Shown piece after piece: positions 17,375 through 56,052 of a stretch of 56,733 nucleotides of DNA; position 1 is the first letter of the stretch; each line of letters opens with the position of its first letter. Source of the stretch: Flavobacteriales bacterium (GTDB lineage: Bacteria; Bacteroidota; Bacteroidia; UBA10329); contig JAGYJL010000009.1 in the NCBI GenBank assembly GCA_018402015.1, positions 1 through 56,733 of the forward strand, written 5' to 3'. The notes beneath the pieces are model-generated. The model was not told the DNA's origin, ran no database searches, and saw only the letters and a list, made by a program, of their open reading frames with translations. A program made the translations under genes and the position numbers.

Positions 17375-17765
17375 CACAAAGCATCTTCCTCGGTGTGTTG
17401 AGAGGTGCGGGTCAGCCTAAGTGGCCAGCATACCGCATCACGTCATTGCGAAACATTTCTTTTCCGAAATGTTGCGGCAATCTCCTTCTTGTACCCAGTA
17501 TTAAAGCACAAAGCGCATCTTCCTCGGTGTGCTAAGGTGCGGGTCAGCCTAAGTGGCCAGCATAACGCATCACGTCATTACAGGAAACATTTCTTTCCGG
17601 AAATGCCGTGGCAATCTCCTGCCTTAGCTGCATTGCTAATGGGGCATCTTCCTCGGTGTGCTGAGGGTCAGCCTGGAGGGCCAGCATACCGCATCACGTC
17701 ATTGCGAAACATTTCTTTCCGAAATGTTGTAGCAATCTCCTGCCTTAGCCCAGCATTAAGCACAA
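17375..17765. repeat. Three tandem copies of a ~130-bp repeat
   Basis: The segment 'CATCTTCCTCGGTGTG' ... 'GGTCAGCCT' ... 'GGCCAGCATA' ... 'CATCACGTCATT' ... 'AAACATTTCTT' ... 'GGCAATCTCCT' occurs three times in a row, starting near 17375, 17506 and 17641. Each copy contains the imperfect palindrome CGTCATTGCGAAACATTTC / GAAATGTTG-GGCAATCTC. A related single element is present at 55797-55845. No coding function is evident. Confidence 0.85.
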
Positions 17766-17779
17766 ACACAGCCCCAAGC

Positions 17780-18165
17780 ACCCTCATTTGAAGTTCTGTT
17801 TTTGATTTTTGATGCTCTCCTACAACTTTTAAGGCTTAATCATTAACAGAACTATGCTAGAACTTTTTAAAGCTCTGTTTTTCCGTAACAGAACCATGGT
17901 AGAACTTTTTAAAGCTCTGTTTTTCAATAACAGAACTATGCTGCAACTTTTTCAAGCTTTGTTTTCTGTGTAATATAGGGAACTATGGGGTGGGAACCTT
18001 TTTAAAGCTTTGTTTTTCCGTAACAGAACTATGGTAGAACTTTTTAAAGCTTTGTTTTTCCGTAACAGAACCATGGTAGAACTTTTTGAAGCTTTGTTTT
18101 TACTTCAGTTAACTACCTGACGGGTTTTTAATGCTTGGTTTTTGCGTCAGTTAGCAACGGAGGTG
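17780..18165. repeat. 42-bp minisatellite, about 7-8 units
   Basis: The core 'GTAGAACTTTTTAAAGC' followed by 'TTTGTTTTTCCGTAACAGAA' recurs with starts near 17824, 17861, 17903, 17945, 17995, 18038 and 18080, with a degraded unit after that. The period is 42 bases in most units, with 37- and 50-base exceptions that may be sequence errors. Forty-two is a multiple of three and the plus strand can be read as a 14-residue repeat (NRTMVELFKALFFR), but no start region or flanking gene supports translation. Confidence 0.85.
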
Positions 18166-42235: not shown

Positions 42236-42808
42236 ATGATCAAAACTCGCTGCGGCTGGGTTTCTGACGACCCTATTTACATCGCATATCACGATGATGA
42301 GTGGGGCGTTCCTGTTAGAGACGAGCAACGACTTTTCGAGTTTCTGACCTTAGAAACATTCCAAGCCGGTCTGAGTTGGATCACGGTTTTAAGAAAACGA
42401 GAAAACTTTAGAAAGGCTTTCGACAATTTCGACTACAAAAAAGTATCCACTTATGATGAGATTAAGGTTTCATCGCTGATGGAAGATGCTGGCATTATCC
42501 GAAACGGGGCAAAGATTCGTGCTGCCGTATCAAACGCACAGGCTTTCATTCAGGTCCAAAAGGAATTCGGTTCGTTCAGCAAGTACATTTGGGGATTTGT
42601 GGATGGAAAGCCGATTCAGAATTCCTTGGCTTCGCTAAAAGATATTCCTGCCAAAACAGAATTGGCCGAACAGATCAGTAAAGACCTGAAGAAACGAGGA
42701 TTCAAATTTGTTGGGCCAACAGTTGTTTACGCACACATGCAAGCAACCGGAATGGTGAACGACCATACCACGGATTGCTTCCGGCATAAAGAGGTTCAGG
42801 CACTCTGA
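42236..42808 (+). CDS. tag: DNA-3-methyladenine glycosylase I
   Basis: 190 residues, full length for Tag. It opens 'TRCGWVSDDPIYIAYHDDEW' with the zinc-binding Cys and His residues, then 'LFEFLTLETFQAGLSWITVL' (catalytic Glu region) and 'KKRGFKFVGPTVVYAHMQAT', ending 'GMVNDHTTDCFRH', which supplies the other zinc ligands. The enzyme removes 3-methyladenine from alkylated DNA. Its end overlaps the convergent GT2 gene by 13 bases. Confidence 0.96.
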   Translation: MIKTRCGWVSDDPIYIAYHDDEWGVPVRDEQRLFEFLTLETFQAGLSWITVLRKRENFRKAFDNFDYKKVSTYDEIKVSSLMEDAGIIRNGAKIRAAVSNAQAFIQVQKEFGSFSKYIWGFVDGKPIQNSLASLKDIPAKTELAEQISKDLKKRGFKFVGPTVVYAHMQATGMVNDHTTDCFRHKEVQAL

Positions 42809-43995
42809 ACCGACTTTGGGTCTTTTCGGAGGACCGTAAGCGTTATCCAGCTCACAACAAACCCGATCAATCCAGTGATGATTGAAAGCAGAATAGCACC
42901 TATCAGATATTGGATGTAACTATCATGGATATTATCGAGCGATAGCTCAGACAGTTTATCAAATGGAATCGGTTCGCCATCGAAGAACGGCTGACCCATG
43001 AGGTAACTGAAGAAAATGATAAACGGAATGAGTGGCGGCAAACTGATGTTGGCAGCCGCGATGAAAAGCACCTTATTCATCCGCAGGAAAATGGCTGTTG
43101 GAATTCCGATCAACAACTGAAATCCCCAAATAGGTAGAATTCCGAAGAAGAACCCGAAACCGATGCTTGCTGCCTTGCGCAGGTTCGTTTCTTCTGGTTT
43201 GATGGCTTCTTCCTTGATCAGCTTTAGCAGCTTCCCTTTCAAAAGCAGTCTTCGTGGAAGATGATAAAGCGCGGTAAGAATGGTGAACCAAGCATTCAGA
43301 AAACTGATGCGCGTAAAATCTGGTCCGGGACGGAAATGCGACACACGTTCGTTCGGGTCGTACTTCACTTGTATCGGTACGGAAACGAACGGCACATCGC
43401 GCCAAGCAAGTTTCACGATCACTTCAATTTCAAACTCAAACCGATTGGTAAACAACGTCAGATTCCTGATCTTTTCGAGAGGATACAAACGGAAACCTGT
43501 CTGCGTATCAGGCATGTAAATCCCCGTCTGCAATCGGAACCAGAAATTGGAAAAACGGTTGGCAAAGCTGCTCTTGGCCGCCATGCCTTCTGCTTCCAAA
43601 TTCCTTGCGCCCATGATCAACGCATCTGGGTGACTTCGATGCACTTCAATGAACTTTGGAATGTCGTTGGCAAAATGCTGTCCATCGCTATCAATCGTAA
43701 TGGCGTAGTGATAACCTAGTTCGGTTGCCTTAGCAAAGGCCATTCGCAATGCATAGCCTTTGCCTTTATTTGGAGCGTAAGAAATGAGAACGATCCTATC
43801 TCCAAATTCGTCTAGAATAGCTGGTGTTCCATCCGTGGCACCATCGTTCACTACGATCAGATCGTCCGTGTATTCCAGCACACTTTCGATAACACGCTTC
43901 ACTGTTTTGTGATTGTTGTAAGTAGGGACAATCACGCAAATTCCCATTTGCTTGAGTTCAGAACGGTAATTCATGGAATTATCCGAAGATGCCAT
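42796..43995 (-). CDS. GT2 glycosyltransferase fused to a DUF2062 membrane domain
   Basis: 399 residues. Residues about 15-245 are a dolichyl-phosphate-mannose-synthase-like GT2 domain: 'GICVIVPTYNNHKTVKRVIE', 'DDLIVVNDGATDGT', 'ITIDSDGQH' (DxD-type) and 'DTQTGFRLYPLEKI'. Residues about 270-395 are DUF2062, with hydrophobic helices and 'GFFFGILPIWGFQLLIGIPT'. This fusion is frequent at the end of aryl-polyene/flexirubin-type clusters in Bacteroidota. The start could also be residue 8 or 17; the first ATG overlaps the FabZ-like gene by 17 bases. Confidence 0.87.
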   Translation of the reverse strand: MASSDNSMNYRSELKQMGICVIVPTYNNHKTVKRVIESVLEYTDDLIVVNDGATDGTPAILDEFGDRIVLISYAPNKGKGYALRMAFAKATELGYHYAITIDSDGQHFANDIPKFIEVHRSHPDALIMGARNLEAEGMAAKSSFANRFSNFWFRLQTGIYMPDTQTGFRLYPLEKIRNLTLFTNRFEFEIEVIVKLAWRDVPFVSVPIQVKYDPNERVSHFRPGPDFTRISFLNAWFTILTALYHLPRRLLLKGKLLKLIKEEAIKPEETNLRKAASIGFGFFFGILPIWGFQLLIGIPTAIFLRMNKVLFIAAANISLPPLIPFIIFFSYLMGQPFFDGEPIPFDKLSELSLDNIHDSYIQYLIGAILLSIITGLIGFVVSWITLTVLRKDPKSVQSA

Positions 43996-44341
43996 TCAGC
44001 TTGAAGTAATTCGTTTCGCCAGAGCGGCCAACGCACGTGAACATATCAACACCATTCCGTTCCTTGAATTCGAATTCCAACGCCAGCTCCTGAACTTGTT
44101 TTGGGTCAATAACGGAAAGGAATTTGATCTGGCGGAATTCAGTCACTTTCTTTTCACCATGGGTCAATCTGATTGCTTCATCCAGCACCATCTGGGTCAA
44201 AGCTGCTCCTGGCGCCACTGGCTTTCCCGGAAAATGCCCTTCATACACTTCGTGCTCGGGATTGAGTTTAGCGCTAACCACTGAGCCAGTATCCGTTTTC
44301 GTTTCGGAGATGTATTCGTAAAACCCTTCAAGCGTTGCCAT
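43979..44341 (-). CDS. FabZ-like 3-hydroxyacyl-ACP dehydratase
   Basis: 120 residues in the hot-dog fold. 'HEVYEGHFPGKPVAPGAALT' carries the catalytic His of the GHFP-x-x-P-x-x-P-G motif, and 'TQMVLDEAIRLTH' the acidic active-site region. This is the form found in aryl-polyene clusters (ApeI/ApeP-like), shorter than housekeeping FabZ. It would dehydrate 3-hydroxyacyl-ACP to build the polyene. It sits between the DUF3261-like and GT2 genes. Confidence 0.87.
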   Translation of the reverse strand: MATLEGFYEYISETKTDTGSVVSAKLNPEHEVYEGHFPGKPVAPGAALTQMVLDEAIRLTHGEKKVTEFRQIKFLSVIDPKQVQELALEFEFKERNGVDMFTCVGRSGETNYFKLNGIFG

Positions 44342-44351
44342 GTCGTCTATT

Positions 44352-44412
44352 TCGTCACCCTGAACTTGTTTCAGGGTCTATAATTCGGATGCTGAAACAA
44401 GTTCAGCATGAC
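44352..44412. repeat. Paired palindromic intergenic repeat
   Basis: 'CACCCTGAACTTGTTTCAGG' followed by 'GCTGAAACAAGTTCAGCATG'. Each is an inverted repeat (CCTGAA/TTCAGG and GCTGAA/TTCAGC), and the two are partly complementary to each other. It is of the dispersed 'CTGAACTTG-TTTCAG' type, placed between two operon genes. Confidence 0.8.
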
Positions 44413-44433
44413 CGCAAATATGGTTATTGTCAG

Positions 44434-44997
44434 CTATTTCTTCTTCAATGGTTCCAACGTAATAGAGAAAGGAAAACCTTGATGGTCGATGCTTAATTCA
44501 TCAATATGATCTTCACCACGTTTGTACTTCACCGTTTTGGATGGATGATGTCGTCTTCCAATTATTTTCACAGAAGTCAATTTTCCATCCACAAAAACAG
44601 GCAGCAGCGTCTTTTTGTTCCACTTCCATTCGTTGCCAAAATCCTCAAAACTTTGGTCATACTGATAATGCGCAAAGAGCAGTAGAATGTCTTCAGCCAT
44701 CATGTTGAAAATCAACTTTCCGCTGAGTTTTTTAGTCGCGTAGATCTTTTTCCATCGACCTTTCTTCCACTCCATCTCTAACAGATTATTGCCCATTGGT
44801 GAAGTGAATGAAACGTGTAGTACATCGTTTCGCCTATGCTTCACTGCAAGAAATCCATTGATTGCAGTGCCTGTTACATTGAATTCAGCCTTATAAATAG
44901 CTTCCTTTCCGCGAGCCAGAATTTCCACTTCCTGTCCTGGCGCTTGCGCCTGAACCGAAGTGGCAAGAAGACTAAAAATCAGCAAAAAGAGCCGCAT
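44434..44997 (-). CDS. DUF3261-like secreted protein of the pigment cluster
   Basis: 187 residues with a signal peptide ('MRLFLLIFSLLATSVQAQA'). The mature part reads 'FNVTGTAINGFLAVKHRRND' and 'HVSFTSPMGNNLLEMEWKKG', and ends 'FPFSITLEPLKKK'. The beta-rich layout and the position between LolA-like and dehydratase genes fit the DUF3261 lipoprotein (ApeN-like) of aryl-polyene clusters, though no lipobox Cys is seen. It may receive the pigment from LolA at the outer membrane. Overlaps the LolA gene by 26 bases. Confidence 0.6.
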   Translation of the reverse strand: MRLFLLIFSLLATSVQAQAPGQEVEILARGKEAIYKAEFNVTGTAINGFLAVKHRRNDVLHVSFTSPMGNNLLEMEWKKGRWKKIYATKKLSGKLIFNMMAEDILLLFAHYQYDQSFEDFGNEWKWNKKTLLPVFVDGKLTSVKIIGRRHHPSKTVKYKRGEDHIDELSIDHQGFPFSITLEPLKKK

Positions 44998-45613
44998 CTA
45001 TCTTTTGGTTGGACTGAACGTTGGAGAAATGAATGTCCGTCATGTCGCCAGACGGATCGGTCAAAGTTACTTTCTTTAGAATGGAACCCGATTTGGCAAA
45101 CTCCACATCAATCTGCTTGATGAATTCCTTCAGGTTCTTCTCCTTCGGTTGAAGCTGAATTCTAATGTTGGTTCCATCGGTTGAGAACACCGTTTTATAG
45201 TTCGAATTACTCATGATTGAACCATCGATACAACCAAGAATGATTTCTTTCACTTGTCGCAAGATCTGGTTCATTCCCTTGTATTTCTTCTCAACGCCCT
45301 CTTCGCGCAACCGCATGGTATTCTCGTTGATCAGAATTACATAATCGATCGGATCTTTGAACTCCCAACGCAATTTGCTTTCCTTCTGGTAGAGAAATAC
45401 GCCTGTGGAGACGAGTTTATCGGTCAGAAATTCGAACGATTTCTCCTGCTTAATATCACCTTTGATGCTATTCATTCCTGCCAAGGTCGACTTCAACCCA
45501 GTTAGCATCGGGTCGCTAGCTTCAATCGTTTTCCAATCCTGAGCGGAAAGGAAAAACGGGAAAATGAGAATCCCGATTGCTATCGGGAGGAAAAATGTTC
45601 TAGCTCTGCGCAT
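44972..45613 (-). CDS. LolA-like outer-membrane lipoprotein carrier
   Basis: 213 residues. Signal peptide 'RARTFFLPIAIGILIFPFFL', then the LolA-type mature domain: 'SIKGDIKQEKSFEFLTDKLV', 'STGVFLYQKESKLRWEFKDP', 'YVILINENTMRLREEG' and 'ILKKVTLTDPSGDMTDIHFS'. In aryl-polyene and flexirubin clusters a LolA-like protein (ApeL-like) is thought to move the product across the periplasm. The DNA palindrome TCCCGATTGCTATCGGGA falls within the signal-peptide codons (see repeat). Confidence 0.88.
   Translation of the reverse strand: MRRARTFFLPIAIGILIFPFFLSAQDWKTIEASDPMLTGLKSTLAGMNSIKGDIKQEKSFEFLTDKLVSTGVFLYQKESKLRWEFKDPIDYVILINENTMRLREEGVEKKYKGMNQILRQVKEIILGCIDGSIMSNSNYKTVFSTDGTNIRIQLQPKEKNLKEFIKQIDVEFAKSGSILKKVTLTDPSGDMTDIHFSNVQSNQKIDAALFADF
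45571..45588. repeat. Palindrome inside the LolA signal-peptide codons
   Basis: TCCCGAT-TGCT-ATCGGGA, a perfect 7-bp stem. The same hairpin with loop TGTT is found at 19164-19181 in an intergenic element. Here it is translated as part of 'PIAIGI'. Confidence 0.85.
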
Positions 45614-45626
45614 GTATCAGGAAGCC

Positions 45627-45971
45627 TTAATCTTTTTTACAACAGCCATCCAACTTGGCATAAGCTTCTGGATCTGCTTTCACATCATCTGCATCAAAAC
45701 CAGATTTTGAAAGCGCAATTCTAATTTCCTCAGGAGTTGTCTTATCTGTTCGATATGTCACTTCTACCGTGTTCTTCTCAGGATCGATCTCTACCTTCTT
45801 GATGCCCTTGGCTTTGCGTACGCTCGTATCGATGTTGTAGCCACAATCATCACATTTCATGCAATGGTCGCACGCAATACTGGTCTTAATTGTAATGGTT
45901 TCGACTTGGTCCTGAGCTTGGCTTCCGAGAGCCAATGCAACGAAAGAAAGTATTCCAATAATCTGTTTCAT
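45627..45971 (-). CDS. Secreted heavy-metal-associated (HMA) domain protein
   Basis: About 114 residues from the Met at 45971 ('MKQIIGILSFVALALGSQAQ', a signal peptide; the ATG at 45992 adds residues without signal character). The mature domain has 'TSIACDHCMKCDDCGYNID', a run of four CxxC-spaced cysteines, then 'GIKKVEIDPEKNTVEVTYR' and a Cys-Cys near the end. The HMA fold with extra cysteines suggests Cu or Zn binding. It is located inside the pigment cluster; whether it serves that pathway is open. Confidence 0.75.
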   Translation of the reverse strand: MKQIIGILSFVALALGSQAQDQVETITIKTSIACDHCMKCDDCGYNIDTSVRKAKGIKKVEIDPEKNTVEVTYRTDKTTPEEIRIALSKSGFDADDVKADPEAYAKLDGCCKKD

Positions 45972-45972
45972 G

Positions 45973-46731
45973 CTATTGATGATAAGGTTCAATTCCGGAT
46001 TGTTCAGGCAACGAAACGATCTTCATGCCATTCTGCTTGCAAAGATGAATAATCTCACGCAGCGCATCGGGTGTGGTCGGATTGGTATCGTGAAATAACA
46101 GCACGGTCGATTTCCTCAAATGCGCCTTCACCCGATTTATCGTTGCTTCCTTGGTACGAATGCGTCCATCCTGCGAACGCAGGTCCCAACCGATCACAGT
46201 ACATTTTTCCTTTCGGATGGCCGAAGTGATCTCTGGTGTCATTACGCCAAACGGTGGTCGGAAATAACGCGTGCGCTTGCCTATAACTTTCTCAATCGCA
46301 TCCTGACCCTCCGTTACCTGCTTCTCAGCGGCAGCTTTTGAGAACACATACGCATGATTGTAAGTATGATTACCCACAACATGGCCTTCATCCATGATTT
46401 GTTTCAGAAGTTTCGGATGCTTCTCCGCGTTTCTTCCAATAACAAAAAAGGCTGCTTTTACATTTGCTTCGCGAAGCACATCCAACACCTTGGGCGTCAC
46501 TTCCGGGTCTGGACCATCATCAAAGGTGAAACTGACCTCACCTTTTTTTCCTCGCCAAAAAGTTGGCATGAAAAACTGGGAACCTATGTCGAAAACGCCC
46601 CAACCGAGCGTGACAGAGTAAGCTAGAAAGAGAATAATCAGAACCTTCCAAGTAACAAATCCAAGCGCGATGGCTGGAACCAAGATCAGCACGAAACCAA
46701 TAGCAAGAATGTTCAGTCGTTGGTAGTTCAA
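45973..46731 (-). CDS. Polysaccharide deacetylase-like protein
   Basis: 252 residues. Two N-terminal transmembrane segments (about 8-55) are followed by a NodB-type domain: 'GEVSFTFDDGPDPEVTPKVL' (the metal-binding Asp pair), 'GHVVGNHTYNHAYVF' (His ligands) and 'RYFRPPFGVMTPEI', ending 'STVLLFHDTNPTTPDALREI'. Catalytic residues are intact. It is membrane-anchored with the domain probably outside. This family member is often part of flexirubin-type clusters, with an unknown substrate. Four-base overlap with the ketosynthase upstream. Confidence 0.9.
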   Translation of the reverse strand: MNYQRLNILAIGFVLILVPAIALGFVTWKVLIILFLAYSVTLGWGVFDIGSQFFMPTFWRGKKGEVSFTFDDGPDPEVTPKVLDVLREANVKAAFFVIGRNAEKHPKLLKQIMDEGHVVGNHTYNHAYVFSKAAAEKQVTEGQDAIEKVIGKRTRYFRPPFGVMTPEITSAIRKEKCTVIGWDLRSQDGRIRTKEATINRVKAHLRKSTVLLFHDTNPTTPDALREIIHLCKQNGMKIVSLPEQSGIEPYHQ

Positions 46732-47723
46732 ACCGTTTCCAGCAAGATGCTCATTTCTTGTCCGAGCAGTTGATGATGCACTAAAATACGCTTTGGATGA
46801 TTGAATGAAACATACGGGTTGTCAACTTTTCCTGCTTCAAAGGCTTTCAAAGCTAGGAACAGCCCGAAGCCGATAGACGTGAAATGTTCCCCTGAGTACT
46901 TCACATAATTAAAGCCTTCACCTGTGTTTGAAAGCACGAGGTCAGCCTGACCTCCCCCAACCCCTCCTTGCAAGGAGGGGAGTTTCTCTTCGCTCTGACC
47001 TTGGTTCAGCGAGCCAGTTCCTCCCCTTGAAAGGGGAGGTGTCACGCTTTTGGGCGTGACGGTGGGGTCATTCGTCATGCTCAACTCCACAACCTTCGCA
47101 ATCGATGAAGGCAACCTTTCTTTCGAAGCCAAGAAGAATGCTCCACCTTCTCCAATTGTCGGCAATTCATAATTGGCAGTGGCGGCAAGCTTGGTAAGCA
47201 ACTCTACCAACTCTTCCGTTTTCTCATCCACCGCACCAACCAGCACTGTTTCAGCATCACCCTCTCCTATCAGCAGTTCCGCATCCGAAAGGGCATAGCC
47301 CAACGACAACCCGCCTTGCACATGCGTCATGTTGTAGCCGTGATTGCCCAATAGCAATGCGATCTGTCCTGCAATGGAGTTGTGCGTGGATTGAATGAAC
47401 GAGGTCGGGGAAAGTCCTGCTTCCGCTTCCTCATACATCACCTTCATAAACTTCAATGTATCACGAACGCAGCCAAGTCCTGTGCCCACCGTTATGGCAT
47501 CGCAGCTTTCCAAGCCTGCTTTCTGCAAGCACGACTTCCCTCCTGCCACGCCCATTTTCAATGCGCTGCTCATTCTGCGCAAAGCTGCTGGGCTCACAAA
47601 TTCCTTGTAGTCTGGCTGAAGGAGTTGGCTTTCGGCAGTGACTTCCGCCAACGTACTCCAAGGGTTCTCACCTCCGAATGTGTCCTGATACGATATGCAA
47701 CTGGCGGCTCCTAAATACATCAC
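46728..47723 (-). CDS. Ketosynthase-like protein lacking the active-site Cys (chain-length-factor type)
   Basis: 331 residues in the thiolase fold: 'GLGCVRDTLKFMKVMYEEAE', 'FIQSTHNSIAGQIALLLGNH' and 'HVQGGLSLGYALSDAELLIG'. The active-site position, normally TACSS, is QGGLS, and the catalytic His motifs are absent, so it should not condense by itself. It probably pairs with the neighbouring active ketosynthase, as in KS/CLF heterodimers of aryl-polyene systems. Residues about 220-258 are encoded by a repeat insertion (46949-47066): 'TPPLSRGGTGS' and 'LPSLQGGVGGG' are not ketosynthase-like. Confidence 0.85.
   Translation of the reverse strand: MMYLGAASCISYQDTFGGENPWSTLAEVTAESQLLQPDYKEFVSPAALRRMSSALKMGVAGGKSCLQKAGLESCDAITVGTGLGCVRDTLKFMKVMYEEAEAGLSPTSFIQSTHNSIAGQIALLLGNHGYNMTHVQGGLSLGYALSDAELLIGEGDAETVLVGAVDEKTEELVELLTKLAATANYELPTIGEGGAFFLASKERLPSSIAKVVELSMTNDPTVTPKSVTPPLSRGGTGSLNQGQSEEKLPSLQGGVGGGQADLVLSNTGEGFNYVKYSGEHFTSIGFGLFLALKAFEAGKVDNPYVSFNHPKRILVHHQLLGQEMSILLETV
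46949..47066. repeat. Palindromic repeat insertion inside a ketosynthase-like gene
   Basis: Three palindromes close together: CCCCTCCTTGCAAGGAGGGG (46961-46980), CCTCCCCTTGAAAGGGGAGG (47020-47039) and GTCACGCTTTTGGGCGTGAC (47041-47060). Such elements are typically intergenic in Bacteroidota. Here about 117 bases keep the reading frame of the host gene open and add about 39 low-complexity residues. Confidence 0.9.
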
Positions 47724-48907
47724 GCTTTCGAAAAGATGACCGTTGAATTATTGCCTCCAAACCCGAACGAGTTGGAAAGCACATGGTTAATATCGCCACT
47801 CTCCACTTCCAATTGCGGTTTCCAATCGTTGTCCTCTATCGGGTCTTGATAGTTCAAATTGGGAAGGAACGTTTGCTCCTTCAATGCCAATAGCGAATAC
47901 ACCGCTTCAATGGCGCCAGCGGCAGCCAACGTGTGCCCTGTGTACGCTTTCGTAGAACTGATGGGCGGTTTCTGCGCTCCGAACACCCGATGAATGGCTA
48001 TGCTCTCCGACTGGTCGTTATTCTGCGTACCCGTACCGTGGGCGTTGATGTAACTAATGTCTGACGACTGCAAACCTGCTTTCTCCAATGCTTGCGACAT
48101 GGCCATGAACGCGCCATTTCCATCGGGCGAGGAAGCCGTTTGATGGTATGCATCGTTCGTGTTGGCCCAACCTGTTACCAGACCATGGATTGTCGCGCCA
48201 CGTGCTTCCGCGTCTTCCTTGCTTTCCAGTACGAGATAAGCAGCAGCTTCCCCCAAGTTCAACCCCGCGCGATTGGCAGAGAACGGCTTACACCATTCCG
48301 TGTCCAAAATCATCAATGAGTTGAAGCCATTGGCCGTAAATCGGCACAAGGCATCTGTTCCGCCCACGATAACACGCTTCAATTTGCCTTGACGCAACAG
48401 GCGTGAGCCCATGGCAATGGCGTTGGCGGCCGAAGAACAAGCCGTACTAATAGTAGTGGCGTATCCCGTAATGCCGAAATGCGCGGCCGCTTGCTTCGTA
48501 CATGTTCCGCAATCATGCGTTCCGAGTAGGAACACATTCGAGAAATCCTGTTCGAGGTAGTAAGGCTCAAAGAAGTCCTCGCTTCTATCCATACCACCCA
48601 CCGAGGTCGATGAAACCAAGCCAACTTGGTTATCCATCTCAAAACCTGATTGCTCAATGGCTTCTTTCATGGCCCAAGCGCTCAAAAGCGTGGTTCTGGA
48701 AACGGCATCGCCTTTCCAGTTCAAACCTGCTTTCAGTTGGTCGTTGCTCAACTTCACTTCTCCAAAAAGATGGGTTTCTGTGAGCCTTGAACTCAGCAAT
48801 TCGGCTTTTCCAATGCCAGTTTTCTTCGCCATAAGCGAAGCCAAGTTCTCCTGCACATCGTTGCCGATGGCCGAAATCGCTCCTATGCCAGTGATTGCGA
48901 TTTCCAT
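47720..48907 (-). CDS. Beta-ketoacyl-ACP synthase (active KS of the pigment cluster)
   Basis: 395 residues, full length. Catalytic triad visible: 'TISTACSSAANAIAMGSRLL' (Cys), 'NAHGTGTQNNDQSES' (His) and 'KAYTGHTLAAAGAIEAVYSL' (His). 'GGTDALCRFTANGFNSLMIL' and the C-terminal 'LSNSFGFGGNNSTVIF' are typical of FabF-like enzymes. It probably forms a heterodimer with the inactive partner encoded just downstream (4-base overlap) to extend the polyene chain. Its stop and start codons touch the neighbours, supporting translational coupling. Confidence 0.93.
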   Translation of the reverse strand: MEIAITGIGAISAIGNDVQENLASLMAKKTGIGKAELLSSRLTETHLFGEVKLSNDQLKAGLNWKGDAVSRTTLLSAWAMKEAIEQSGFEMDNQVGLVSSTSVGGMDRSEDFFEPYYLEQDFSNVFLLGTHDCGTCTKQAAAHFGITGYATTISTACSSAANAIAMGSRLLRQGKLKRVIVGGTDALCRFTANGFNSLMILDTEWCKPFSANRAGLNLGEAAAYLVLESKEDAEARGATIHGLVTGWANTNDAYHQTASSPDGNGAFMAMSQALEKAGLQSSDISYINAHGTGTQNNDQSESIAIHRVFGAQKPPISSTKAYTGHTLAAAGAIEAVYSLLALKEQTFLPNLNYQDPIEDNDWKPQLEVESGDINHVLSNSFGFGGNNSTVIFSKA

Positions 48908-49509
48908 TATCTATCCAAATAAATATCGGTGAGACTTTCTGCCGTTAAATCCTCTACGCTTGTGTTGGTGATGAACACAAAGAAACCATCGTGTTCGTCT
49001 CCATTCACTTCGGTCCAGCCAATAAGGACGGCCTTGGCGGCATTGTCTGCAAACAGCGCCTCGCATTGCTCTAAGAGTTGCGCAGCATTGAACCGCTCGG
49101 TGATCAGGAAGTTGTTCTCGCCATACAGCTTGTGGCGGATGCATATCTCGCCCACTTCAATATTCGGAAGGGTGTACACGAACAGCGCAGGACTGGCAAT
49201 GCCACTTTCCTTCAGCGAGTTGTAGTACGCATGATCCGTTTCCAGACTGGACGAACGGTTTGAATAGATTACTGCTACTTCATCATCGGCATATGTTTCC
49301 AGTTCCGAACGCATCAAGGTCATTTCTGCACCGAGGAAACCCAGTTGCGAAAGCGCATCCATCTTGAAGAACTTCGGATAACTCAAGCCAATGTGATTAT
49401 AAACGGAACGCAAAAACGACCCTTCTTCCATAAACTGGCAGAAGAGTTCCCCATTGATGTGAACCTCCTTGTCCTTGATCCGGCAATATGTATTCAGGCT
49501 CAAACTCAT
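48907..49509 (-). CDS. Short thiolase-fold (ketosynthase N-half-like) protein
   Basis: About 200 residues starting at the ATG that overlaps the upstream ketosynthase stop (ATGA) at 49509; an ATG at 49539 is also in frame. Sequence: 'CRIKDKEVHINGELFCQFME' with later 'EVAVIYSNRSSSLETDHAYY' and 'ALFVYTLPNIEVGEICIRHK'. The 'VIYSN-S-SLETD...P-LFVYTLPN...GEI-I' pattern matches a ketosynthase N-terminal fold up to the region of the active-site Cys, but no Cys-Ser motif and no His motifs follow. It may be a structural partner or a remnant. Its place between two ketosynthases is usual in flexirubin-type clusters. Confidence 0.6.
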   Translation of the reverse strand: MSLSLNTYCRIKDKEVHINGELFCQFMEEGSFLRSVYNHIGLSYPKFFKMDALSQLGFLGAEMTLMRSELETYADDEVAVIYSNRSSSLETDHAYYNSLKESGIASPALFVYTLPNIEVGEICIRHKLYGENNFLITERFNAAQLLEQCEALFADNAAKAVLIGWTEVNGDEHDGFFVFITNTSVEDLTAESLTDIYLDR

Positions 49510-50651
49510 CGCGTCTTGAATAAAGCTGCCGCATTGCATCCACCAAAACCGGATGCGGTCTTGAGGAAATAATCCGAGGTGGGTGCTGTGGTTCGTGTGA
49601 TGATGTTCATGGGTCGTGAGACGCCTTCTTCCTCATAGCCGAGCGAGACCACCAATTCCTTGCGTTTCATGCCTTCCAGTCCAAGCAGGGTTTCTATCAC
49701 GCCTGCCGCGCCCAGCGTGTGGCCGAAATACCCTTTCATGCTGTTGACGGGAACATCCGACAGTCCGCTGCGCTCAAACGCAATGCTTTCCATCTCATCA
49801 TTAAAGGAAGTGCCCGTTCCGTGGGCCGACAGATAACCTATCTGCCCTGCGCTGACCGAAGCAGGGTTCAACGTGCGTTCTATACTTCGGTGCAGGCCTT
49901 CTCCCGTTCGGGATGGGCCCGAAATATGGTTCGCATCGTTGGCACTCGTGCCCGACACGTACTCATCGCATCTTCCTTTGAAGAGCGTATCATCATTCGA
50001 AAGCACCAGACCTGCGGCTGCTTCGCCTAGGTTGATGCCCGTTCTGTTCTTATCATAAGGCTTACACACGCCTTCTGTTAGCGCATGCAAAGCTGCAAAT
50101 CCCGAAAGGGTGAATTCCGAAACCACATCACCACCCAACACCATCACGTGCTCATACTTTTCTGCACGTATCAATCGCGCAGCGGTAATGATGCCCAGCA
50201 GGCCCGAAATGCAGGCATTGCTCACGATCATCGGCTCATTGCCCAGATCGAACGACTGCCGCATGAATTGGCTCAAGCGCGTAAGCGGCAAGCGCGGGTC
50301 ATCATCCCTATCTATCTTATCAATGTTTCCCTTGGTGGTACAGATGATCACCAGGCCATCCTCATCCTGAAACGGGTCGTATTGCAGTTTGCTTACCGAA
50401 TGCTCGTAGCACTTGGCCAGCATGTTTTCCAGCTTGGTGCTGTCTACACGTTCTTCTATGATGAAACTGTTTGGTATCAGCCCCACGTGGCTGGTGGTTT
50501 CTACGCCAAAAGGACGCTCCAACTGCTGCAAGCCTGTTTCGCCACGCAGCATGGCATCATACACCTTGGCGGGTGTATCGCCCAGCGGGCAGATAATGGA
50601 TTTGGCACCTACGTAAACCTCGCTCAAACCAGTCCGTGCTTTTGTTTCCAC
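49506..50651 (-). CDS. Beta-ketoacyl-ACP synthase
   Basis: 381 residues. Active residues: 'MIVSNACISGLLGIITAARL' (Cys), 'LSAHGTGTSFNDEMESIAF' (His) and 'MKGYFGHTLGAAGVIETLLG' (His). The end 'KTASGFGGCNAAALF' is typical. It resembles ketosynthases of aryl-polyene clusters (ApeC/ApeR-like) and could start chain building or extend it. The ATG at 50651 overlaps the thioesterase stop by 28 bases; a TTG overlapping that stop (50629) is an alternative start closer to the usual domain beginning. Confidence 0.9.
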   Translation of the reverse strand: METKARTGLSEVYVGAKSIICPLGDTPAKVYDAMLRGETGLQQLERPFGVETTSHVGLIPNSFIIEERVDSTKLENMLAKCYEHSVSKLQYDPFQDEDGLVIICTTKGNIDKIDRDDDPRLPLTRLSQFMRQSFDLGNEPMIVSNACISGLLGIITAARLIRAEKYEHVMVLGGDVVSEFTLSGFAALHALTEGVCKPYDKNRTGINLGEAAAGLVLSNDDTLFKGRCDEYVSGTSANDANHISGPSRTGEGLHRSIERTLNPASVSAGQIGYLSAHGTGTSFNDEMESIAFERSGLSDVPVNSMKGYFGHTLGAAGVIETLLGLEGMKRKELVVSLGYEEEGVSRPMNIITRTTAPTSDYFLKTASGFGGCNAAALFKTR

Positions 50652-51046
50652 GCTTCAAAGAAAGGCGGAGTATTCAATTGCAGCACATGGTCCGTGTCCA
50701 TGAATACCTGCACCGTTTCACCCTTTGCCTTCAGTTGCGTTCTGTCTTCGTTATACACCTTGAAGCGAAAGATCATCTTGGCTGCAGGTGAATTGATAAA
50801 GGTCGTTTCCACCACCCCGATCTCATTATAGCGCAAGGGATATTTGAAATCCAAATGCGTGGAGGCCAAGGGCATCAACAGTCCGTGCTGTTCGTACACA
50901 TCGGTAAAATCGAAATCGTACTGCTTGGCCCACGCGTCTCTCCCATCCTCAAAATACTTCAGGAAATTGCCATGCCATACAATGCGTAGGCTATCCACCT
51001 CGCTAAACCGAACCCTGAATGTTGTTGTGTTCGTAAGCTCCTTCAT
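50624..51046 (-). CDS. 4HBT-type acyl-CoA/ACP thioesterase
   Basis: About 140 residues from ATG 51046 ('MKELTNTTTFRVRFSEVDSL'). The motif 'VDSLRIVWHGNFLKYFEDGR' holds the catalytic Asp and the His-Gly pair of 4-hydroxybenzoyl-CoA-type thioesterases. The ATG at 51094 would add 16 residues encoded by an intergenic repeat, so it is unlikely. In the cluster it would release or edit acyl chains (ApeK-like). It lies between the LpxL-like acyltransferase and a ketosynthase. Confidence 0.88.
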   Translation of the reverse strand: MKELTNTTTFRVRFSEVDSLRIVWHGNFLKYFEDGRDAWAKQYDFDFTDVYEQHGLLMPLASTHLDFKYPLRYNEIGVVETTFINSPAAKMIFRFKVYNEDRTQLKAKGETVQVFMDTDHVLQLNTPPFFEAWKQKHGLV

Positions 51047-51060
51047 TTTATCTCGCAGAG

Positions 51061-51225
51061 CTTGATTTTGTTTCACGCAGAGGCGCGGAGACACAGAGAG
51101 TCACTAACGGATTATTGCACCGAGATGACTTTGAGAAACCGAGATTCACAGAGTATTCATCCTCTGTGTTCTCTGTGTGAAAAGAAACTAATTCTCTATG
51201 TGTCTCTGTGTAAATCATACCTTCC
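51061..51225. repeat. Intergenic 'CACAGAG' type repeat
   Basis: Contains 'TTTCACGCAGAGGCGCGGAG' ... 'CACAGAGAGTCAC' and the near-complement 'CCTCTGTGTTCTCTGTGTGA' and 'TATGTGTCTCTGTGTAAA', forming a long imperfect inverted repeat. It separates the acyltransferase and thioesterase genes and its right edge touches the acyltransferase stop. No coding role. Confidence 0.75.
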
Positions 51226-52177: not shown

Positions 52178-53809
52178 TTACTGTTTTACCAACTTCTGTG
52201 TAGCCCAACCCTTCTCAGTAAGTAGTTGCAAAATGTAAATACCAGAGGGCTTGCCAGTAATATCAATTACCTGATTGCTAGCAGCATTTGTATTGGAGAA
52301 TAGCAACTTGCCTAGGGCATCAAAGACATGATATTCTGCAATGTCGGCTTCATCAATTCGGAATATACCGTTGCTCGGATTGGGGTAAACCGATACCTCA
52401 TCTGAAGTTTCGTTCTGAACCTCAATGTCAGTAATAGTACATGGGCCTAAAACCCCATCGGCACAAACATTTTGCGCACGACCATTGCTGTTCCATGTTA
52501 TAAAGGCCCCACCTGCACCATCTGAAATGAGTCGCGGTAAAGATTGATTGCCCGCTGCAGTGCATATCGCAACCCCATCAGTAGTCCATTGCCCTACTCC
52601 TGAATTATTTAAACGTTGGGCATAAATATCATATGACCCACTACGTTCATCATACCAAGTGAAAATTGCACCTCCTGCGTCATCGGAAATTAGCTGCGAC
52701 CCTGTTTGATTGTCTGTTTCTGTGGAGACGGCAACGCCATTAGCCGCCCATTGCACTATTCCATTACTATTTACACGCTGCGCGTAAACATCATCATCGG
52801 TACCGCTACGCGTATCATTCCAAGTTATGACCGCACCTCCTGCGTCATCAGAAGTCAGTTGAACAGCTAATTGGTTACCAGGCGCTGTGCATACAGCCAC
52901 CCCATTGGTGGCAAATTGAATTACACCAGAGCTATTAATTCTTTGGACATAAACGTCTGAAGCTCCATTACGATTGTCACTCCAAGCAATAATTGCACCG
53001 CCCAATCCATCCGCGGTCAATTGAGGATATGATTGGTTGACTTGTGCCGTGCAAATTGGCACTCCATTTAGCGTCCATTGTGCTATTCCTAAGCTATTGA
53101 TGCGCTGGGCATAAATATCATAGTTGGCTCCGCCACGATTGTCCCACCATGTAATTATTGCCCCGCCAGCACCATCTGAAATAAGCTGAGGAGATTTCTG
53201 GTAAAGAGTCGCATCGCATACCGCTACCCCATCAGCAATCCACTGAACTACTCCCGAACTATTAATTCGCTGGGCGTAAATATTGTCTGCATTACGCGGA
53301 TCCTGCCAAGTGATTATGGCTCCACCAGCGCCATCTGAAATCAGCTGGGGAACAGATTCAGGACCATAAAATGTACAAATACCCACCCCATCACTGGTCC
53401 ATTGCGCTACTCCTGAACTATTTATGCGTTGCGCATAAATATCAACGTTACCACCACTACTATTACGATTATCAATCCAAATAATAATTGCACCACCCGC
53501 TCCATCGGAGGTCAGTTTTGGAGTTTCTAGGCTGTAAGTAGCATTACTGACAGCGACCCCTGAAGCGCCCCATTGCACTGTACCTGAACTACTGATGCGC
53601 TGGGCATAGATACCTCCAACTGCAATCTCATACGTAATGATAGCCCCTCCCGCACCATCAGAAATCATTTGTGGATCGCTATATCCACTATTCGTAGAAA
53701 CAAGATTATTTATGGCCGGATTAGTCGACCATTGAGCTTTGACCCCATCAATTAGAAATGGCGAATTAAGAATAAGAAACGAGATGAGAAGGAGTAACTG
53801 TTGTTTCAT
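52178..53809 (-). CDS. Secreted repeat protein with T9SS type A sorting domain
   Basis: 543 residues. Signal peptide 'MKQQLLLLISFLILNSPFLI'. Then about eight repeats of roughly 52 residues with the core 'DGAGGAIITW' ... 'DIYAQRINSSGVAQW' ... 'GVAVC', likely a beta-propeller-like structure. The last ~75 residues are a T9SS C-terminal sorting domain: 'VSVYPNPSNGIFRIDE', 'YHVFDALGKLLFS', 'DITGKPSGIYILQLLTE' and 'ATQKLVKQ'. It would cross the outer membrane through the type IX system and be anchored or released. The domain identity of the repeats is unknown. It lies inside the pigment cluster but has its own terminator. Confidence 0.92.
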   Translation of the reverse strand: MKQQLLLLISFLILNSPFLIDGVKAQWSTNPAINNLVSTNSGYSDPQMISDGAGGAIITYEIAVGGIYAQRISSSGTVQWGASGVAVSNATYSLETPKLTSDGAGGAIIIWIDNRNSSGGNVDIYAQRINSSGVAQWTSDGVGICTFYGPESVPQLISDGAGGAIITWQDPRNADNIYAQRINSSGVVQWIADGVAVCDATLYQKSPQLISDGAGGAIITWWDNRGGANYDIYAQRINSLGIAQWTLNGVPICTAQVNQSYPQLTADGLGGAIIAWSDNRNGASDVYVQRINSSGVIQFATNGVAVCTAPGNQLAVQLTSDDAGGAVITWNDTRSGTDDDVYAQRVNSNGIVQWAANGVAVSTETDNQTGSQLISDDAGGAIFTWYDERSGSYDIYAQRLNNSGVGQWTTDGVAICTAAGNQSLPRLISDGAGGAFITWNSNGRAQNVCADGVLGPCTITDIEVQNETSDEVSVYPNPSNGIFRIDEADIAEYHVFDALGKLLFSNTNAASNQVIDITGKPSGIYILQLLTEKGWATQKLVKQ

Positions 53810-55235: not shown

Positions 55236-55309
55236 GTTTAAGAGCTTTTAGCGGTTAGATATTGGGTTTTAGGTTTAATAATTGAATTGGAATGTGCTGC
55301 TGAACAATC

Positions 55310-55560
55310 GGAATTCGAGACATTCCGATAGAAATCCGTGACATTCCGATTGGAATGTGGCGGATCACACATTAAATGTTGCGGAAACCAACTGAAATGT
55401 GTCGAATTCCGATTGAAATCTGTCGAATTACAACTGAAATGTGCAGAATTCCGATTGAAATCTGACGAATTACAACTGAAATGTGGCGTATTCCGATTGA
55501 AATCTGCCGAATTCCGATAGGAATTTGACGGATAACAGTAGAAATGTGTGGAATTCGAAC
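55310..55560. repeat. 21-bp minisatellite
   Basis: Units of the kind 'CGAATTCCGATTGAAATCTG' with variants 'CGAATTACAACTGAAATGTG' alternate with period 21, for about eleven units. A 21-base period is a multiple of three, and both strands stay open (plus: EFRLKS-/ELQLKC- units; minus: DFNRNS- units), but no gene context supports translation. Confidence 0.85.
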
Positions 55561-55599
55561 AGTTATGCCCGACCAAGCGATAGGTCGATAGCTCTTGTC

Positions 55600-55614
55600 T
55601 CCGCCTGAGGCGGA
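55600..55614. repeat. Short palindrome TCCGCCTGAGGCGGA
   Basis: Stem TCCGCCT/AGGCGGA around a central G. Also present with central T at 16560-16574 (TCCGCCTTAGGCGGA). A dispersed element; function unknown. Confidence 0.75.
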
Positions 55615-55621
55615 TTGACGG

Positions 55622-55724
55622 CTTGTCGCTTGTCGCTTGTCGCTTGTCGCTTGTCGCTTGTCGCTTGTCGCTTGTCGCTTGTCGCTTGTCGCTTGTCGCT
55701 TGTCGCTTGTCGCTTGTCGCTTGT
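55622..55724. repeat. Heptanucleotide array (CTTGTCG)n
   Basis: About 14-15 uninterrupted copies of the 7-base unit CTTGTCG, 103 bases. Such arrays change copy number by slippage. It lies about 340 bases before the ACP gene end on the other strand and about 390 bases from the upstream gene; no reading frame of a known gene crosses it. Confidence 0.9.
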
Positions 55725-55796
55725 AATAAAACATACAGCGAAAATATTGAATTTTTCGAGCGGTTGATGTTATCAGGTGAAAAAAGTTACGTCTCC

Positions 55797-56052
55797 GTCA
55801 TTGCGAGAAATTCCCTGAAAGGAATTTCGTGGCAATCTCTATCGGTGTACTGCGAGACTGAACAAGATTACTTCGCTCCGTAAACTCCGCACGTAATGAC
55901 GATGGTTATGGGGGCTTGCATGAGATTGCTTCAGTCGTTCCTCCTTCGCAATGACGGGTTAGGTTTAGCGAGACCCTTCGTTCGTCCTTCGATATACTTC
56001 GACAAGCTCAGCACAGGCTAATTTCGATTGCATCGAAATCACTCAGGATGAC
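55797..56052. repeat. Cluster of palindromic intergenic repeats
   Basis: 55797-55845 is 'CGTCATTGCGAGAAATTCC' ... 'GGAATTTCGTGGCAATCTCT', an inverted repeat related to the elements at 17.44-17.74 kb. 55915-55957 contains 'GCATGAGATTGCTTCAGTCG' and 'TCGCAATGACGG', and 55979-56052 has 'CCTTCGATATACTTCGACAA', 'GCTCAGCACAGGC' and 'ACTCAGGATGACA', like the repeat at 28.91 kb. Non-coding. Confidence 0.8.

Follow-up and report, generated by a model that had tools for sequence, protein, structure and literature searches.

Short palindromes that are translated in frame within unrelated protein genes are already known, the Rickettsia palindromic elements (RPE) and the intragenic REPs being the closest described cases (available text of PMC10969869 and PMC3733652). 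The element described here was found in a 56,733-nucleotide stretch of DNA from a Flavobacteriales bacterium (contig JAGYJL010000009.1; the whole stretch is referred to as the window), and its source genome is a fragmented draft that is 83% complete. As far as those texts describe them, the known cases have in common with the element short palindromes, in-frame translation, intergenic copies and a position in mostly tolerated regions, whilst the element differs in its phylum and sequence, in the lack of a GTAG/CGTC tag and in the lack of a conserved peptide, five combinations of frame and orientation being used. It is not an RPE in the strict sense of those from Rickettsia, because frames and orientations differ between genes and there is no CGTC tag; the window insert is a different sequence family within the same kind. 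A further difference is that arms of the kind carried by the window element enclose a nuclease gene, unlike the CGTC repeats, for which no transposase association is reported in the available text of PMC3733652.

Two other systems resemble the element in part. REP/REPIN sequences with their RAYT are also dispersed, multi-copy, non-autonomous and built of inverted hairpin pairs, but there is no convincing RAYT association in the genus studied here, where the association is with DUF559 instead. Inteins and intron-borne homing endonucleases, including the EDxHD/Vsr-like class, likewise bring a nuclease in frame into recurrent sites of conserved genes with a patchy distribution across species, whereas the DUF559 inserts have no protein-splicing motifs and no Rfam intron, and their palindromic linkers appear to be retained in the protein. 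The Caulobacter protein VsrA (PF04480/DUF559) is described in the available text of PMC12907096 as a standalone predicted mismatch-repair nuclease; the domain and its Vsr-like PD-(D/E)XK fold are the same here, but in many cases DUF559 is part of a host enzyme and lies between palindromes. A link of DUF559 to palindromes or to in-frame insertion was not found in the available text of the open-access literature, nor was a palindrome-bracketed nuclease embedded in LeuRS, MetH or other essential enzymes found in that of the open-access PMC literature, and the DUF559-palindrome link appears to be new. The window insert is probably a non-autonomous copy of a palindrome-armed element, with arms (TGACCTCCCCCAACCCCTCC-hairpin and hairpin-GGGGTCA) of the kind that bracket DUF559, which is tolerated as a flexible linker.

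The insert in the chain-length-factor-like gene

The gene that carries the insert (46728..47723, minus strand, 331 aa) encodes a chain-length-factor-like ketosynthase (CLF), with the gene of its active, Cys-containing ketosynthase (KS) partner directly upstream (47720..48907, minus strand). The initial annotation regarded the host as the catalytically inactive partner, which is borne out by its Pfam assignment (ketoacyl-synt_2) and by an active-site position that has no Cys, reading HVQGGLS where the adjoining KS has TACSSA; 6kxd_B, deposited as 'Ketosynthase', is a weak match of CLF. The surrounding region (42796-51094) holds the KS and CLF together with a thioesterase, a LolA-like carrier, a polysaccharide deacetylase and a glycosyltransferase with DUF2062, a gene set which we take to resemble an aryl-polyene/flexirubin-type pigment cluster.

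The inserted palindromic element is 123 nt long (46948..47070), has the ends TGACC...GGTCA and is read on the minus strand as about 41 residues (DPTVTPKSVTPPLSRGGTGSLNQGQSEEKLPSLQGGVGGGQ); it is supported by its absence from orthologues, by its repeat copies and by its sole open frame. Three palindromes of intergenic type had been proposed to lie within the open coding region, and all three are present. The left arm is formed by TGACCTCCCCCAA followed by hairpin 1 (46961..46980; CCCCTCC TTGCAA GGAGGGG, sequence CCCCTCCTTGCAAGGAGGGG), and the right arm by hairpin 2 (47020..47039; CCTCCCC TTGAAA GGGGAGG, sequence CCTCCCCTTGAAAGGGGAGG) and hairpin 3 (47041..47060; GTCACGC TTTTGG GCGTGAC, sequence GTCACGCTTTTGGGCGTGAC) with the terminal GGTGGGGTCA, whilst the linker between the arms (46981..47019) takes the place that the nuclease gene has in DUF559-bearing elements elsewhere. 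As single strands the hairpins fold much more stably than shuffled sequences (z -3.6 and -4.6), and the GC content is 60% in the element against 50% in the rest of the CLF gene. Five of the six frames of the insert contain stops, and the one that does not is the frame used by CLF.

When the CLF protein was searched against the eight other genomes of the genus, five orthologues without the insert were found (G001 and G004-G007; 76-81% identity on the N-terminal side). These align to CLF residues 1-218 and 257-331 with only about seven divergent residues between, and the open frames of the close orthologues are about 296-321 aa. The net length difference between CLF and the orthologues is +108 nt (36 residues) for a unit of 123 nt, and the insertion therefore took the place of about 15 nt of ancestral sequence. 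The alignment of homologues from related species, which had been suggested as a check, thus finds the segment missing, as is the case for the in-frame insertions of other translated palindromic repeats; the insert is real, although the unit, at residues about 218-259, is slightly larger than the approximately 39 residues (220-258) first assigned to it.

It might be argued that CLF, as the non-catalytic partner, is a decaying pseudogene with a chance in-frame insert, or that ribosomal skipping or splicing removes the segment, hairpin inserts being bypassed in some mitochondria. This is very improbable, as the rest of CLF shares about 80% identity with its orthologues and shows no further lesion, the adjoining genes are intact, and skipping would leave the preservation of frame in at least 15 genes without a reason. 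The initial annotation also placed the insertion in a surface loop. As the structure prediction for CLF failed (pLDDT 33 for an AlphaFold model built from the window's own paralogues), such a placement may at most be suggested by the homologous cases described below.

Other repeats are found in the window. A second palindromic family, CGTCATTGCGA...GGCAATCTC, is present as three tandem copies at 17406-17760, which also form an ORF (17405-17791), and as a single copy near the window end (55796-55839); it looks like the CGTC-tagged REPs, going by the available text of PMC3733652. The window end carries a second ketosynthase fragment, near which there is a 21-nt tandem array (55301-55552) adjoining a perfect GCTTGTC heptamer array (55593-55739), and a 543-aa ORF (52178-53809) is made of about seven repeats, each of roughly 162 nt (54 aa).

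The repeat family and its in-frame copies

Besides the window copy, the 123-nt unit is matched at six places of the draft genome, with 80% identity over 88 nt at one of these, and at many places in congeners. A strict pattern (CCCCYRRCCCCTCC..GGAGGGG) is matched 51 times in six of the nine genus genomes, with no matches in the nine when it is read backwards, and most of the 51 lie outside genes in the manner of a dispersed repeat. Copies outside recognisable genes are intergenic or lie at the ends of genes, and frequently a stop codon coincides with them or is no more than a few bases away. A related pattern occurs in 18 of the 395 Bacteroidia genomes of a class-wide draw, spread over ten genera, and a pattern scan across public contigs, the organism labels of which are unreliable for the genus ('Chryseobacterium gleum' MAGs), gave eight loci. 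Exact matches on contigs labelled Gammaproteobacteria, Pseudanabaena and Doudnabacteria (L118, L122 and L123) hint that this kind of repeat may extend beyond Bacteroidia.

At least 19 arms lie in frame in 15 genes of six genomes. In the window's own species the hosts are CLF and a glycosyltransferase; those of congeners, as assigned by Pfam, include the enzymes AroA, IleRS, LeuRS, ValRS, urocanate hydratase (at two sites) and methylmalonyl-CoA mutase, as well as a Wzt ATPase, a T9SS-tailed protein and a membrane glycosyltransferase/methyltransferase that is occupied at one site in two species. Several of these hosts, namely ValRS, LeuRS, IleRS and AroA, are catalytically essential. The view that an intergenic-type repeat has been inserted with its frame kept is thus upheld, but the case is not confined to one dispensable partner protein: the repeat is in frame in at least 15 genes of the genus, several of them essential. 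The frame is kept in every copy assigned to a recognisable gene, and no copy was seen to split such a gene when the flanking ORFs were judged by eye, a procedure that a broken unfamiliar gene could escape.

The 19 arms use both orientations and five of the six reading frames, and it is therefore the DNA repeat and not the peptide that is conserved. This bears on the notion that the segment belongs to the CLF protein as a functional or conserved region, in favour of which it may be said that the frame is open and is the sole open one of six. The segment is missing from all close orthologues, however, and other copies give different peptides in other frames and orientations within unrelated proteins, such that this notion is already largely refuted and has next to no probability left.

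When compared with homologues, HutU, ValRS, LeuRS and a glycosyltransferase have additional segments. For HutU and ValRS, sequences from the PDB align to either side of the inserts and do not contain them, which places the inserts between conserved blocks, and in the AroA alignment conserved blocks flank the insert on either side. Occupancy varies among orthologues, with the HutU site empty in G000 and G001 and the glycosyltransferase site empty in G001, G002 and G006. The same two sites of urocanate hydratase are filled in several species (L140/L064 in G002, L139 in G004, L138 in G005, L134 in G008 and L135 in G003) with inserts of very different lengths, suggesting either old insertions with turnover or one site used repeatedly. 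The LeuRS proteins of the genus (L148-L153, alignment columns about 820-990) have a long variable segment before the KMSKS block with little similarity between species, which is not obviously derived from the element.

The inverted hairpin pairs of the element look like REPINs, and it is conceivable that the element is a REP/REPIN-type repeat, mobilised by a RAYT (Y1/HuH, TnpA-like) transposase, that landed in frame by chance. Y1_Tnp genes are present in five of the nine genus genomes, and in G005 one copy of the element lies about 700 nt from a RAYT-like gene. This is the only one of 12 Y1_Tnp loci to have an arm, none being found at the other 11. Elements without a Y1_Tnp match occur in G004, G007 and G008, whilst G001 and G003 have Y1_Tnp but few or no elements, and the GTAG/CGTC tags that define those REPs in the available text of PMC3733652 are missing from the element. 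A RAYT mobiliser was rejected on the grounds of the Y1_Tnp loci without arms, the element did not qualify as a REP/REPIN-RAYT member, and this origin is considered quite unlikely.

DUF559 nucleases between palindromic arms

In the LeuRS of G002 a complete DUF559 nuclease domain lies in frame between two such arms. DUF559 is present in 169 of 395 Bacteroidia genomes and is more frequent in those with the element (14/18 against 155/377, P 0.002; P 0.004 with the genus left out), although none was found in the element-bearing G007 and G008, of which G007 is only 76% complete. About half of the 150 listed DUF559 matches are in frame within long host genes, and ORFs of at least 300 aa hold 80 of the 150 among the matches listed.

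The flanks of DUF559 carry a GC-rich hairpin on at least one side at 36 of 44 distinct loci and on both sides at 16, compared with 16 of 382 control windows (4.2%) from the same loci. For a weight matrix trained only on the mini-elements of the genus, the density of matches within 200 nt of DUF559 is about 11 times that found elsewhere (P 1.5e-7). Arms of the same type thus bracket DUF559, the match being one of kind and not of near-identity since the stem of the embedded-DUF559 arms is often CCCCTCTCC where that of the genus is CCCCTCC. An intact DUF559 gene with CACACCCCTAACCCCTCTC-hairpin-type arms on both sides is present in the window's own genome; it groups with standalone copies in a clade from which most embedded ones are separate, and its arms are reversed relative to those of the embedded copies. 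In a tree of the DUF559 domain, in which many forks are unresolved, most embedded copies fall into a single large group, within which the host gene changes several times, and most standalone copies lie outside it.

It is apparent that particular host genes recur. A sample of 100 matches, biased to good scores and long ORFs and including two duplicate places, has 31 in LeuRS (at two sites only), nine in MetH, four in IleRS and four in RecG, with DUF559 at recurrent sites in all four genes. Further hosts are RecJ, a UvrD-like helicase, MutS, acetyl-CoA synthetase, methylmalonyl-CoA mutase, HsdR and type ISP enzymes. The one MetH and one LeuRS host that were scanned pass the NCBI equivalog cut-offs around the DUF559 insert. 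The DUF559 insert of G002 is at LeuRS site A, whilst site B is occupied both by arm-only inserts (G004 and G008) and, in other families, by inserts with DUF559 (L183, L206, L260, L263, L267, L270, L271 and L235), the two versions thereby sharing one host site; the flanks of an unoccupied site B join cleanly.

DUF559 inserts are frequent in genes of repair and recombination (L214 in RecJ, L236 in MutS, L211/L241/L258/L278 in RecG and L234 in a UvrD-like gene), and intragenic REPs have likewise been noted in DNA repair and recombination genes in the available text of PMC3733652. In L256 (LeuRS of G154) the palindromic right linker, which separates DUF559 from the editing domain, is expanded in frame to at least five tandem right-arm repeats (LPSPRGEGSGERF..). 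PADLOC gave a weak homing-endonuclease match to one embedded DUF559 copy (E 0.0009). Two known classes were considered and rejected: an intein, with HN[CST] in the right linker of none of 73 embedded inserts and no intein family in Pfam and NCBIfam scans, and a group I/II intron homing element, with no Rfam match at gathering score at seven loci.

A possible route of insertion and its meaning

From these associations in sequence we infer that the element is mobilised by DUF559. The Vsr-like, PD-(D/E)XK-type nuclease would nick or cut the target or a hairpin, and repair would copy the element in, with genic copies surviving only if they leave the frame open and have a net length divisible by three. 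The insert, the frame of which is observed to be open, would then be translated without splicing as a flexible linker rich in Gly, Ser and Pro in a tolerated loop between conserved blocks. Arm-only inserts such as that in the window may finally arise if the nuclease is deleted from between the arms, or if the element is moved in trans; one LeuRS site that is shared by arm-only inserts and inserts with DUF559 supports this step. A target-site duplication could not be defined.

It is also possible that DUF559 could be a passenger, or an exploiter of palindromes that were already there. A MITE or passive palindrome family with some other mobiliser, its palindromes being used by DUF559 genes as landing sites, would agree with the many arm-only copies that are intergenic and often at or near stop codons, and movement driven by DUF559 is a deduction and not a demonstrated event. 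In many families, nevertheless, DUF559 is found in frame at fixed places of its hosts with matching arms on either side, and a passive family would have to supply palindromes at those exact sites beforehand. Empty sites free of palindromes in close relatives of genomes with the complete arm-DUF559-arm unit, which would tell against it, are seen in part for LeuRS, and a passive origin is judged to be unlikely. The preferred reading of the window insert as a derivative of a palindrome-armed DUF559 element may be extended, more tentatively and with slightly less than an even chance of being right, to a class of selfish element in which DUF559 with palindromic arms homes into conserved sites of essential genes and is retained, unspliced, as a nested domain. 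The arms would serve both as structures for DNA recognition and as stop-free linkers, and arm-only derivatives would spread palindromes through genes and intergenic regions.

Translated palindromic repeats thereby gain a candidate enzyme for their mobility, and the odd low-complexity insertions (TSPNPS..GGE, SSPPGKEGSGEV) in enzymes of Bacteroidia would be explained. The finding points to a nuclease that may invade essential genes without a splicing device. If this is true, DUF559, a domain that is frequent and largely unexplained, would be a homing-type element with targets in LeuRS, MetH, IleRS and RecG.
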